Below are positions 14,190-19,840 of a stretch of 64,000 nucleotides of DNA, one piece after another; the first letter of the stretch is position 1, and the number at the start of each line of letters is the position of its first letter. A model generated the notes under the pieces. The model had not been told where the DNA came from, did not search any database, and saw only the letters and a list, made by a program, of their open reading frames with translations. Source of the DNA: an uncultured bacterium (lineage in GTDB: Bacteria > Verrucomicrobiota > Kiritimatiellia > PWTM01); NCBI GenBank assembly GCA_938010045.1, contig CALLFZ010000003.1, forward strand, positions 62,001-126,000, written 5' to 3'. The position numbers were made by a program, and so were the translations under genes.

Positions 14190-15554
14190 TCAGACGATTG
14201 GATAGCGCCACGGCGCACGATAGTCGCGTCGCAGCATCGCGTTGGCTTCCGGATCGTTTTCGATCACCTCGCGTTCCGCATCCCATCGGAGGCTGCGGCG
14301 CAGCTTCATCGAGATCATCGCGAGCAGGCACATGTTTGTGGCCAGGTGAATCTCGCGGACGTCGCTGACGGGCCGCCGGCGCTCGCGGATCGCCGCGATG
14401 AAGTCGGCCCACAGCTCGCGGATGTTCTGATGGTCCGGCGCGTTCAGTCGCGCGTCTTCGCGGATCTCCGGCTTCTTCGGATCGCTGGGATAAAACGTCC
14501 AGCCGGACCTCCAGCCGAGGTGTAGTGTGCCCTCGGTGCCGTAGAAATAGCAGCCGACGTTCTCGCCCTTCTCGGCGTTGTTCCCCGCGAACAGCCGGTG
14601 TTCCCAGCTCACCGTGAACGAATCGAACTCGAAGATCGCGCACTGATGGTCTGGAGCGTCGGAGGTTTGCTCGGTTTGGGTCAGCACTGGCGGGCCTTTG
14701 ACGGGGCGGCCGCCGATGGACATCACGGTGCGCGGCGCACGCTCGCCGGTGATCCAAAGAATCTGGTCGAGCCAATGGACGCCCCAGTCACCGAGGGTGC
14801 CGTTCGCGTAGTCGAGGTACTGGCGGAAGCCGCGCGGGTGGATCCCGCCGCCGGAACCGTCGGGCTCGCTGTTGAAGGGGCGCATCGGCGCCGGTCCGCA
14901 CCAGAGATCCCAATCGATCCATGCGGGCGGCTCGATGTTACGCCGCGGTCGTTCGGGGCCGCCGCCGTACAGCACGAACGCGCGCACCATGCCGAGCCGA
15001 CCGAGGCGGCCACTTCGGATGAACTCGCGTGCGGAGAGGTTGTGGGGCGAGATGCGCCGATGGGTGCCGACCTGCACAACTCGGTCGGCAGCGTGCGCGG
15101 CGCGGACCATCGCCTGGCCCTCGCCGATGGTGTGGCCGATTGGTTTTTCCACGTACACATGTGCGCCGACCTCCACCGCCGCGATCGTCGGCAACGCGTG
15201 CCAGTGATCTGGCGTCGCGACGATCGCGATGTCCGGCCGTTCGGCCTGGAGCAGCTCACGGTAGTCCTTGAACAGCCGCGGTTCGTCGCCGCACTGTTCG
15301 CGGACGCGCGCGGCAGTGGCCTCGAGCGCGCGCCGGTCCACATCGCAGAGGCCGACGATGCGGCATTCTCGCGACGCGATCGCCTCGCGCAGGATGTTGT
15401 TGCCCCACCAGCCGCATCCGATCAGCGCGGTGCGGAACGGGCGGTCGACTCGCTCAGCCACCGCGAGGCGCGGCGCGGCTGCCGCCGCCGTGGCCGCGGC
15501 GGCACGCCGAAGGAACGAGCGGCGGTGAATCAGGCTGGGGTAGGTCTGGTTCAT
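14190..15554 (-). CDS. Gfo/Idh/MocA family oxidoreductase, Tat-exported
   Basis: 454 residues. The leader HRRSFLRRAAAATAAAAAP is a Tat-type signal followed by a run of alanines. The Rossmann part begins LIGCGWWGNNI and is followed by GLCDVD and the EKP motif in VYVEKPIGHT. The C-terminal domain contains GDWGVHWLDQILW. The start is set by AGGGAG about 9 bases before the ATG at 15552-15554; earlier in-frame codons give a low-complexity Arg/Gly/Pro tail that is not part of the gene. The gene probably heads a minus-strand unit running into the zinc-ribbon and prepilin genes (93-base gap). It is paralogous to the genes at 11.7 and 41.1 kb. The substrate is unknown. Confidence 0.85.
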   Translation of the reverse strand: MNQTYPSLIHRRSFLRRAAAATAAAAAPRLAVAERVDRPFRTALIGCGWWGNNILREAIASRECRIVGLCDVDRRALEATAARVREQCGDEPRLFKDYRELLQAERPDIAIVATPDHWHALPTIAAVEVGAHVYVEKPIGHTIGEGQAMVRAAHAADRVVQVGTHRRISPHNLSAREFIRSGRLGRLGMVRAFVLYGGGPERPRRNIEPPAWIDWDLWCGPAPMRPFNSEPDGSGGGIHPRGFRQYLDYANGTLGDWGVHWLDQILWITGERAPRTVMSIGGRPVKGPPVLTQTEQTSDAPDHQCAIFEFDSFTVSWEHRLFAGNNAEKGENVGCYFYGTEGTLHLGWRSGWTFYPSDPKKPEIREDARLNAPDHQNIRELWADFIAAIRERRRPVSDVREIHLATNMCLLAMISMKLRRSLRWDAEREVIENDPEANAMLRRDYRAPWRYPIV

Positions 15555-15610
15555 CCGTGGTACTCCCTGTCTTGGGGCGGCCGCATAACGGTACGCCATC
15601 CTGCAGCCGC

Positions 15611-15639
15611 GCATAACATGGTCGGCAGCCGGTTGGCAA
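15611..15639 (-). promoter_or_regulatory. candidate promoter for the 14.2-15.6 kb oxidoreductase gene
   Basis: On the minus strand TTGCCA (15639-15634), 17 bases, then TTATGC (15616-15611). The start codon at 15554 lies about 55 bases downstream. A second TTATGC lies nearer the gene (about 15582-15587) without a good partner. Confidence 0.4.
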
Positions 15640-15805
15640 GCCGTCAAGGCCCAGAAGAGCGGGGAGGTCCGCGCAGCGCCATTGCGTGGCGCGGGCGCCG
15701 TCCCCGGAAGCGCACGTCTCGGGGCGCTCGAAGGGGGCTGGTCGCCTGACGTACCACCGGGCCGGCCCCCGCCGCGCCGGACGCCAAACGAAGGGCGCCG
15801 TGGCA

Positions 15806-15834
15806 TTGACCGCCGCGAGGAATTGTCCTAATGT
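15806..15834 (+). promoter_or_regulatory. sigma70-type promoter for the T-motif membrane protein gene
   Basis: TTGACC at 15806-15811, a 17-base spacer and TAATGT at 15829-15834. The ATG at 15870 follows 35 bases later, with GAGG (15859-15862) as ribosome site. This is one of the best promoter matches in the window. Confidence 0.6.
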
Positions 15835-15869: not shown

Positions 15870-17039
15870 ATGAGCGACGAGGTCAGGGACACGTCTCCGG
15901 AAACGCCGGCTCCTCCGGATCTGCCGCCGAAACTGCGCCTGCCACTGCAGGGAGCCGCCAATGGTAAAAAGCCAGACACCACCCGCATTGACCTGGGAGC
16001 CGCGGAACCGCCCGAACCAGCGCCCGCCGGTGGCGAACCGCTGCGAATCGGGGATGTGCTCAAGGAGCTTCAGTCGCCGCGCACCGAAGTGAGGAGTCCG
16101 TCGGCCGCGACGCCGAAGTCGCAGACGACGCGGGTGAGCATTTCCGATTCCCAGCCCGTGAAGCCGGGCGAATCGGTGCCGATCGCGAAAGCGGCGACCT
16201 CGCGGATTCCGCTCAGCGAGTCGCAGAAGCTCGCGGCGGAGACGGCGGGGGAGGTGCCCAAGGCCATTCCGACGAAGCGCGCCACCTCGCCGATTCCGAC
16301 CGAGGGCGTGCAACCCTCGCCCGTCGCCGCCGAGGCGGCCGCGCAGGGGGCGCTCGGCCGAACTGCAAGAATCATTATCGACGAGGAAGAGTCATTGCCG
16401 ACCGGCGGATCGCTCGGTGACACGGGCAAGATGGTCATCCCGCCCGCCGCCGTCCCGCCGGCCCCGGGCGCGCCGCCGAAGACGGTCCGGTTGCAACGGC
16501 CCGGCACGGGTCCGGCTCCGAAGACGATCGTCCTGAAGCGGCCCGAGGGTGCGCCGAGTGCCGCGCCGAAGACCGTGGTGTTGAAGGCTCCAGCGGCTCC
16601 GGCCGCGCCGGTCGTGTCACCGCCGGCCGAAGGGCCTCACACCGTCGAGGTGTCCTCGCCGGCCGAGACGTTGGAGGCCAAGGGGGCCACCGCCCGCATT
16701 TCGATCCCGGCCTCCGCGCTGGATGCGACCGCGCCGACCACGCAGCGCAAGACAATTCGCATCAAGCGAAGCGAGGGGCCCGCCACCGGCGCCCGCACCG
16801 TCGTGCTGACGCGTCCGCCGGTCACCGCGGCTCCAAAAACGGAAGGCGGGCCATCGCCGATCCTCGCCATGGAGCCGAAGGCCGAGCTCGAGGAAGCACT
16901 CGGTGTTCCGACGCGCGAGCCGGGAGTTGGCTACGCGATTGTTGCGATCGTTACGTTCCTGGTGATGGGCGCTCTGCTCTACGTGTTGCTCGCACAAACC
17001 TATTTCCCGAACTGGGCGCTGCCCGGCCGCGTGATGTAA
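15870..17039 (+). CDS. membrane-anchored protein with about 13 short T-x-(R/V)-(I/V/L) motifs
   Basis: 389 residues, unknown function. Almost all of the protein is Pro/Ala-rich disordered sequence carrying short strand-like motifs. These start at about residues T38 (TRIDL), T87 (TRVSIS), T110 (TSRIPL), T139 (TSPIPT), T165 (TARIII), T185 (TGKMVIP), T205 (TVRLQRP), T219 (TIVLKRP), T235 (TVVLKAP), T258 (TVEVSSP), T274 (TARISIP), T295 (TIRIKRS) and T310 (TVVLTRP). A single transmembrane helix lies at about 354-376, close to the C-terminus (GYAIVAIVTFLVMGALLYVL). The absence of a signal peptide suggests that the long N-terminal region faces the cytoplasm, tail-anchored. It may be a multivalent docking or phosphorylation platform. 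Its end overlaps the convergent esterase gene by 89 bases. Confidence 0.72.
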   Translation: MSDEVRDTSPETPAPPDLPPKLRLPLQGAANGKKPDTTRIDLGAAEPPEPAPAGGEPLRIGDVLKELQSPRTEVRSPSAATPKSQTTRVSISDSQPVKPGESVPIAKAATSRIPLSESQKLAAETAGEVPKAIPTKRATSPIPTEGVQPSPVAAEAAAQGALGRTARIIIDEEESLPTGGSLGDTGKMVIPPAAVPPAPGAPPKTVRLQRPGTGPAPKTIVLKRPEGAPSAAPKTVVLKAPAAPAAPVVSPPAEGPHTVEVSSPAETLEAKGATARISIPASALDATAPTTQRKTIRIKRSEGPATGARTVVLTRPPVTAAPKTEGGPSPILAMEPKAELEEALGVPTREPGVGYAIVAIVTFLVMGALLYVLLAQTYFPNWALPGRVM

Positions 17040-18486: not shown

Positions 18487-18515
18487 TGGACGGTGATTGG
18501 CCGTCCGGTTATTGT
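18487..18515 (+). promoter_or_regulatory. candidate promoter for the PQQ-like protein gene
   Basis: TGGACG (18487-18492), 17 bases, TATTGT (18510-18515). The ATG at 18542 follows after 26 bases, with GGAG in between as a ribosome site. The -35 hexamer is weak. Confidence 0.4.
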
Positions 18516-18541
18516 GGGCGCCGTTCCGGAGACCGCAACGC

Positions 18542-19840
18542 ATGATCGTTCGCATGGAGCTGCGTGCGCGCAGGGTACTTCTTCTCGCGCTGTGGGCTGG
18601 CGCGTTGTGCGGCGCGCTGGCGTGGGGTCGCGATGAGAACGTCCGCTGGCCGCGCTGGCGGGGGCCCAACGATAACGCGGTTGTGGATACGCCGCTGCCG
18701 GTGTCCTGGTCGCCGACCTCGAACATCGCGTGGCGGGTGAGCTTGCCCGGCGTGGGCGCCTCGACGCCGGCGGTATGGGACGGACGGATCGTGCTCACGG
18801 CCCCGATCGAGGGGCGCGATGGTGTGCTCTCGTTCGACGCGGATGGGCGGGAACTGTGGCGCGCAACGTTCGGCCCGGCGCGGCCGCCCAAACACCGCGC
18901 CGCTTCAAGCTGCAATCCTTCGCCGGTGACGGACGGTCGGATGGTCTGGGTCTACTACAAGAGCGGCACGCTGGCGGCGGTTTCGCTCGAAGATGGTCGC
19001 GTGCGCTGGATCGTGAACGTGGAGGAGACATTCGGGCGGGATGAGCTGGTCTGGGACGTGGGCACGTCGCCGGTTCTGACCTCGAACGCGGTGGTGCTTT
19101 CGGTCATGAATGGGCCGAAATCGTACGTCGCGGCATGGGACCGGGACGGCGGGCGGCTGTTGTGGAGCGTGCCGCGGGCCTACCCGTGCGCCTACGAGGC
19201 CGACCAGGGCTATACGACGCCGATGGTGTTTGAGTGGACGGGGCGCGAGGTGGTGCTGGTGTGGAATGCCGAGCACGTGACGTTGCACGACGCGCGCGAT
19301 GGCACGGTGCTTTGGGATTGCGGCGGTCTGAACCCCGAGCGGCGCTCGAACTGGCCGCCGGTCGCCTCGCCGCTTCGGATGGGCCAGCGGCTGATCGTGC
19401 CGTACGGCCGCGGCACGCGCCTGTTCGGCCTTGAGCTGGGCGGCGCGGGCGACGTCACCGCGACCGCGCACCGATGGGTCCGCACCGATATCGGCAGCTA
19501 CGTGCCGACGCCGCTGGCCTGGCGCGGCCAGGTCGTGTTGCTGAGGGACCGTCACGAGGTGTATGGCGTGGACCCGGACGATGGTCGCACGCTGTGGAGC
19601 GGGCTGCTCGAACGCGATCGAACGCCGTTCTATGCCTCGCCTCTGATCGCGGCGGACCGGCTCTATGCCGTGCGGGAGGACGGAGTGGTGTTCGTGGCCG
19701 AGCTTCGGCCGCGATTCCAGGTCATCTCGCGTATTCCGATGGGCGAGCCGATCCGCGCCTCGCCGGCGCCGTACGGCCGGCGGCTGCTGTTGCGCGGCGA
19801 GCGCACGCTTTGGTGCGTCGGCGCTCAGCCCGCGCGATGA
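18542..19840 (+). CDS. exported PQQ-like beta-propeller repeat protein
   Basis: 432 residues. After a signal peptide (ARRVLLLALWAGALCGALAWG, within the first 30 residues) the sequence WPRWRGPNDNAVVDTPLPVSW is the hallmark opening of planctomycete/verrucomicrobial PQQ-like proteins. It is followed by blades with the recurrent pattern G-x-x-(L/V)-(S/A)-(F/L)-D-x-x-(D/T)-G-(R/T)-x-L-W, for example VLSFDADGRELW and VYGVDPDDGRTLW. No dehydrogenase catalytic domain is added, so this is likely a binding or scaffold propeller in the periplasm and not a quinoprotein enzyme. Alternative starts exist at 18497 and 18554; 18542 is chosen for the upstream GGAG. Monocistronic. Confidence 0.83.
   Translation: MIVRMELRARRVLLLALWAGALCGALAWGRDENVRWPRWRGPNDNAVVDTPLPVSWSPTSNIAWRVSLPGVGASTPAVWDGRIVLTAPIEGRDGVLSFDADGRELWRATFGPARPPKHRAASSCNPSPVTDGRMVWVYYKSGTLAAVSLEDGRVRWIVNVEETFGRDELVWDVGTSPVLTSNAVVLSVMNGPKSYVAAWDRDGGRLLWSVPRAYPCAYEADQGYTTPMVFEWTGREVVLVWNAEHVTLHDARDGTVLWDCGGLNPERRSNWPPVASPLRMGQRLIVPYGRGTRLFGLELGGAGDVTATAHRWVRTDIGSYVPTPLAWRGQVVLLRDRHEVYGVDPDDGRTLWSGLLERDRTPFYASPLIAADRLYAVREDGVVFVAELRPRFQVISRIPMGEPIRASPAPYGRRLLLRGERTLWCVGAQPAR

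Follow-up and report, generated by a model that had tools for sequence, protein, structure and literature searches.

A gene at positions 15870 to 17039 of the window, the whole 64,000-nucleotide stretch of DNA that was analysed, encodes a protein (hereafter the array protein) in which a long disordered region carries a conserved array of short threonine motifs and is followed by a single membrane helix. Selection on the motif threonines is strict, and genes for kinases and FHA proteins occur together with the protein. On balance, we lean toward regarding the array protein as a tail-anchored, disordered multisite phosphothreonine scaffold, which would be written by Hanks-type Ser/Thr kinases and read by FHA proteins.

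The open reading frame had been placed correctly by a sequence-only reading of this DNA, and the Pro/Ala-rich disordered region of about 350 residues and the one terminal membrane helix described there agreed with the composition and the structure prediction. The parts of the gene were as follows.

15870 to 17039, + strand: open reading frame of the array protein, 389 aa plus stop, ATG start (ORF and homologues).
15870 to 16904, + strand: Pro/Ala-rich, Cys-free disordered N-terminal region, residues 1–345, predicted to be cytoplasmic (composition; AlphaFold2 pLDDT mostly 40–60).
16926 to 17003, + strand: single C-terminal transmembrane helix, residues 353–378 (AlphaFold2 block pLDDT 87–96; hydrophobic C-terminal segment in all homologues).
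17004 to 17036, + strand: short conserved tail after the helix, predicted to be periplasmic (family consensus AQTxxPxLPFPGR; tail lengths of 9–34 among homologues).

Residues 1–345 contained 56 Pro and 53 Ala. AlphaFold2 modelling with a 32-row alignment gave a mean pLDDT of 53, with values of about 40–60 nearly throughout, and the helix was the single confident element (block means of 87–96). In 54 homologues, a hydrophobic segment was followed by 9–34 residues, and an N-terminal hydrophobic stretch above the threshold was found in only one. As is characteristic of tail-anchored proteins, the array protein has no N-terminal signal, one helix near its C-terminus, and a short tail. Its N-terminus is probably located in the cytoplasm, because the protein has no signal peptide; the charges flanking the helix do not decide the orientation. 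Consistent with the earlier remark that no known family was recognizable, Pfam and NCBIfam gave no family above the curated cut-offs. The sole Pfam match, SecE, covered the membrane helix with an E value of 0.098, below the cut-off; NCBIfam yielded none, and no FHA domain was matched in the array protein itself in the Pfam search.

The array gene stands alone, flanked on both sides by genes on the opposite strand. Named from their translations without a search, the upstream one encodes a Gfo/Idh-type oxidoreductase and the downstream one an alpha/beta hydrolase. The oxidoreductase gene (14190 to 15806, - strand) is divergent from the array gene, and its product has a twin-arginine-like leader (RRSFLRRAAAATAAAAAP). 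A probable PQQ-like beta-propeller protein, also named from its translation, is encoded at 18497 to 19840 on the + strand. The strong promoter previously assigned to the array gene was not recovered: a sigma-70 scan found no sigma-70-like site upstream on the + strand, and its one match in the region lay on the opposite strand, inside the array gene.

Ten motifs of the strict form T-x-[RKV]-[IVL] were found in residues 1–345, with threonines at positions 37, 86, 110, 165, 205, 219, 235, 274, 295, and 310. In the family, the motifs fall into two classes: class A, K-x-[DE]-T-[AS]-R-I-[DE]-L, has an acidic residue at −1, R at +2, I at +3, and L at +5, and class B, P-K-T-[IV]-[RV]-[IL]-K-R-P, has Lys at −1 and Arg-Pro at +5/+6. 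The motifs are given below with the evidence for each, where "invariant" refers to the threonine in four close genomes.

15978 to 15995, + strand: motif 1, TTRIDL (T37), class A (invariant).
16125 to 16142, + strand: motif 2, TTRVSI (T86), class A (motif count; invariant).
16197 to 16214, + strand: motif 3, TSRIPL (T110), class A (motif count; invariant).
16362 to 16379, + strand: motif 4, TARIII (T165), class A (motif count; invariant).
16482 to 16502, + strand: motif 5, TVRLQRP (T205), class B (motif count; family alignment; four close genomes).
16524 to 16544, + strand: motif 6, TIVLKRP (T219), class B (motif count; invariant).
16572 to 16592, + strand: motif 7, TVVLKAP (T235), class B (motif count; invariant).
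16689 to 16706, + strand: motif 8, TARISI (T274), class A, one of the family's two best-conserved motifs (family alignment).
16752 to 16772, + strand: motif 9, TIRIKRS (T295), class B, the best conserved in the family, where it reads QRKTIRIKRP (family alignment).
16797 to 16817, + strand: motif 10, TVVLTRP (T310), class B (motif count; invariant).
16284 to 16652, + strand: relaxed T-x-x-phi sites T139 (TSPI), T144 (TEGV), T185 (TGKM), and T258 (TVEV), which with the strict ten account for the earlier count of about 13.

The strict form was expected 1.04 ± 0.99 times in residues 1–345 (20,000 shuffles, maximum 6), and the relaxed form T-x-x-[IVL] occurred 13 times versus 5.6 in the shuffles. 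The corresponding serine form, S-x-[RKV]-[IVL], was at chance level in the same residues, with one occurrence versus 0.8 expected. Among the four closest genomes, all ten motif threonines were invariant, although synonymous changes had occurred in the codons of nine, and the relaxed sites T139, T185, and T258 were invariant too; outside the motifs, only 6 of 22 other Thr and 7 of 25 Ser were invariant. A functionless, composition-driven low-complexity repeat, which the sequence-only reading had named as a possible refutation, would suit a Pro/Ala-rich sequence with a variable number of motifs. Its probability is negligible, and it was ruled out by the shuffles, by the conservation of the motifs across the class, and by the retention of the motif threonines despite the codon changes.

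The preference for threonine was quantified in 54 non-redundant homologues, comprising 17,104 residues before the helix. T-x-[RKV]-[IVLM] occurred 415 times versus 51 expected, and the residue preceding x-R-[IV]-x-[LIV] was T, S, A, and V in 168, 0, 1, and 0 cases, respectively, while Ser and Thr made up 7.6% and 8.7% of the disordered regions. Around Thr, the log2 enrichments were 1.33 and 0.75 for aliphatic residues (IVLM) at +3 and +5, and 1.28 and 1.04 for basic residues at +2 and −3, respectively; none of these flanking enrichments was seen around Ser in the same homologues. Some preference for Thr is, however, general to such patterns, which counts against the phosphothreonine reading: in background ORFs, which may include non-genes, the pattern with Thr was about 3-fold more common than that with Ser (99 versus 32). 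Judging from these sequences, the threonine is what selection acts on in the motifs.

Relatives of the array protein were found in 22 of 58 genomes by a single-sequence search. With a 22-row alignment as the query, 87 of the 388 genomes searched in the phylum gave the protein, almost all of them members of the same class. A 54-row alignment found it in 85 of the 101 class genomes, usually as one copy per genome, which rules out an orphan gene. The class is presumably Kiritimatiellia, judging from the named records, which are MAGs with the labels Kiritimatiellae, Kiritimatiellaeota, Lentisphaerae, Verrucomicrobia, or PVC group. Kiritimatiellia is a little-studied bacterial class. The homologues share a MADE-like N-terminal start, the array (2–18 motifs per homologue), which closes with the motifs KSETARIDLP and TQRKTIRIKRP, and after it the helix and the tail. 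The motifs are thus conserved in homologues across the whole class, and the lack of conservation that would have counted against the sequence-only reading was not observed. In a diverged lineage (L117 and L123), the repeats read DQTMEIDP or DKTMEIDP, in which Thr and Ile at +3 are kept and Arg at +2 is lost; acidic TMEIDPEALxTGNI-type repeats stand in for many motifs there. Another class of the phylum has similar C-terminally anchored proteins, which may be homologues of the array protein, in three genomes (L109–L111), with TIQLKKPESS/TVQLKKPESS units in L109 and TVKLPPP and TIQLPG in L111.

The motifs were compared with known kinase sites and FHA ligands. FHA domains read phosphothreonine, and their choice of ligand depends on the residue at pT+3 (PMC5549992); the array shows Thr to the exclusion of Ser (168:0) and IVLM at +3. 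In the kinase consensus quoted in PMC5686395, Thr is preceded by acidic residues, and positions +3/+5 are occupied by large hydrophobic ones. The hydrophobic preference was present around Thr and absent around Ser; an acidic residue at −1 was found in 63 of 302 T-x-R-[IVLM] sites, and class B sites have Lys at this position. In mycobacterial guanylate kinase (Gmk), the PknA phosphosite was mapped to Thr169, VIQRRLDT(169)ARIEL (PMC5686395). The form [DE]T[AS][RK][IV][DE][LI] occurred 34 times in 29 of 55 family proteins, and its commonest versions, ETARIDL (11) and ETARIEL (7), match the Gmk site LDT(169)ARIEL. We regard this likeness as a lead from a distant phylum, short of proof. Thr, Arg at +2, and aliphatic residues at +3/+5 appear to fit both Hanks-kinase substrates and FHA ligands. 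A literature search found no phosphoproteome of Kiritimatiellia.

In the mechanism that we propose, Hanks-type Ser/Thr kinases would phosphorylate the Thr of each class A motif, T-x-R-[IV]-x-[LIV], and probably also that of each class B motif, K-T-[IV]-x-[IL]-K-R-P. Each phosphothreonine, together with the aliphatic residue at +3, would then form a docking site for FHA domains, and the candidate readers include two class-wide FHA types, soluble FHA-A and tail-anchored FHA-B. The gathering of FHA proteins and kinases by the array protein at the inner membrane would thereby scale with kinase activity.

The distribution of these candidate partners was examined. The genome to which the window belongs had seven FHA matches and seven Hanks-type kinase matches. 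Among the 101 genomes of the class, kinases were found in 96 and FHA proteins in 95, and all 85 genomes with the array protein had both FHA and kinase genes. In five genomes of family f16 (G023, G046, G056, G116, and G159; 93–98% complete), no kinase, FHA protein, or array protein was found; this co-absence counts as one evolutionary event because the five genomes form one clade. Eleven further genomes without the array protein keep kinases, and one of them (G080) is also without FHA; the other ten lack the array protein alone by the 54-row search, and some of these are perhaps incomplete or diverged.

Most short FHA loci from the class belong to one of two recurrent types. FHA-A is soluble; its domain is followed by GKGYSTILREIV and often by a disordered tail that bears a class-B-like stretch, for example RPITIKLKRRE or RPPLRINIKRPE. 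This stretch was found in 11 of 20 FHA-A tails versus 1.6 expected, with a pattern chosen after inspection and among related sequences. FHA-B has an FHA domain and a C-terminal membrane helix of its own, and T-x-x-[IVLM] occurred in 19 of 21 FHA-B linkers versus 9.1 expected, the sequences being related and the trials not independent. In the genome of the window, FHA-A (L095) and FHA-B (L096) are divergent neighbours on contig C44 (L169), and the FHA domains of L095–L098 keep G-R, S-x-x-H, and N as judged by eye. FHA domains fused to a MoxR-type AAA ATPase (L097) and a CpaF-like ATPase (L100), both named from sequence, were also observed in this genome.

The docking or phosphorylation platform proposed in the sequence-only reading was therefore upheld in part. 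The conserved Thr-specific motifs and the presence of kinases and FHA proteins wherever the array protein occurs agree with it, but the FHA or Ser/Thr-kinase genes anticipated nearby in relatives were not enriched within 10 kb of array genes, where one FHA gene and two kinase genes were found in 700 kb of flanks. A phosphatase search that covered PP2C_2 found none in the genome of the window, and PP2C_2 was rejected as the eraser for this reason.

The main rival is that the array docks without phosphate, each T-x-R-I-x-L or T-I-R-I-K-R-P extending a sheet of a folded partner by one beta strand (beta augmentation), with Thr kept for strand fit and the protein acting as a plain multivalent membrane tether. 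The strand-like alternation of the motifs and the failure to find PP2C_2 in the genome of the window agree with such docking, as do the class-B-like cores that recur in FHA-A tails, mostly without Thr. However, Val or Ser should then be tolerated, and each was found 0 times versus 168 for Thr; moreover, L117 and L123 keep Thr and the aliphatic residue at +3 (DQTMEIDP) even though Arg at +2 is lost. We consider phosphate-independent docking of the whole array doubtful, although class B may be read without phosphate, because Lys at −1 departs from the acidic preference and the FHA-A tail motif is mostly devoid of Thr.

The gene neighbourhood was compared at 44 loci across the class. In 38 of them, the array gene was directly followed on its own strand by a thioredoxin gene (WCGPC); frr (ribosome recycling factor) and pyrH (UMP kinase) were often upstream, and thioredoxin was also found beside many of the more distant homologues. 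This arrangement could indicate a membrane scaffold that recruits thioredoxin or thioredoxin clients, but such a role is improbable. The disordered regions of the 54 homologues contain one Cys in 17,104 residues, and the array protein is therefore unlikely to be a redox client of the neighbouring thioredoxin. In addition, thioredoxin is not adjacent to the array gene in the window or its own family (L051–L055), and the pairing may be mere operon position because the other neighbours, frr and pyrH, are housekeeping genes. The same housekeeping context, the class-wide occurrence of usually one copy per genome, and the conserved LPFPGR tail beyond the membrane are compatible with a spacer in the envelope or a tether in cell division, with motifs that bind some non-FHA protein. 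We judge this role equally improbable, as it does not account for the strict choice of Thr, the agreement with a known kinase site, or the joint presence with kinases and FHA proteins.

If the array protein is a phosphothreonine scaffold, it may, together with FHA-A and FHA-B, form a class-wide, kinase-controlled multivalent phosphothreonine–FHA network at the inner membrane that condenses or disperses with kinase activity; we put this broader proposal forward only tentatively. Both FHA domains and Hanks kinases are widespread among bacteria, and their ligands are usually single sites. To our knowledge, the ligands of these bacterial domains and kinases are mostly unknown, and multivalent phosphothreonine scaffolds have so far come from Rv1747-type modules and eukaryotic adaptors. 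The array protein represents an unannotated core protein family with a logic of a known kind. What appears to be new, within the literature and databases searched, is the family itself, the fact that it is separate from the FHA domains, and its occurrence throughout the class. With many readable Thr sites in one disordered membrane chain that is near-universal in one class, it makes testable whether bacteria use multivalent phosphothreonine scaffolds as general membrane hubs.

In eukaryotic scaffolds of the MDC1 type, phosphorylated motifs of a large adaptor recruit FHA proteins. MDC1 is a nuclear DNA-damage adaptor with other kinases, and homology to the array protein is not claimed; the recruitment of FHA proteins by phosphorylated MDC1 motifs is described in PMC11884936. 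The Thr169 site of Gmk, LDTARIEL (PMC5686395), differs little from the most frequent class A motif, but it is a single site in a folded enzyme, whereas the array protein has many sites in a disordered region and belongs to an unrelated phylum. In Agrobacterium type VI secretion, a phosphothreonine of TssL is reported to bind Fha (PMC3953482). The likeness lies in a phosphothreonine on a membrane protein serving as an FHA docking site, which is only proposed for the array protein; TssL is a secretion component, whereas the array protein carries an array of sites in its disordered region and is not encoded near a secretion locus. In Rv1747 of Mycobacterium tuberculosis, a disordered linker connects two FHA domains; the protein is phosphorylated by PknF and clusters in the membrane, as reported in PMC9312465, which cites Heinkel et al. 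2019. Its FHA domains and linker lie within one ABC transporter, whereas the array protein, with 2–18 motifs and a single tail anchor, has no FHA domain in the same polypeptide and would rely on FHA domains of separate proteins. The two systems are nevertheless alike, on the array side as predicted from sequence, in combining a disordered membrane-tethered segment, control by Hanks kinases, and FHA domains.
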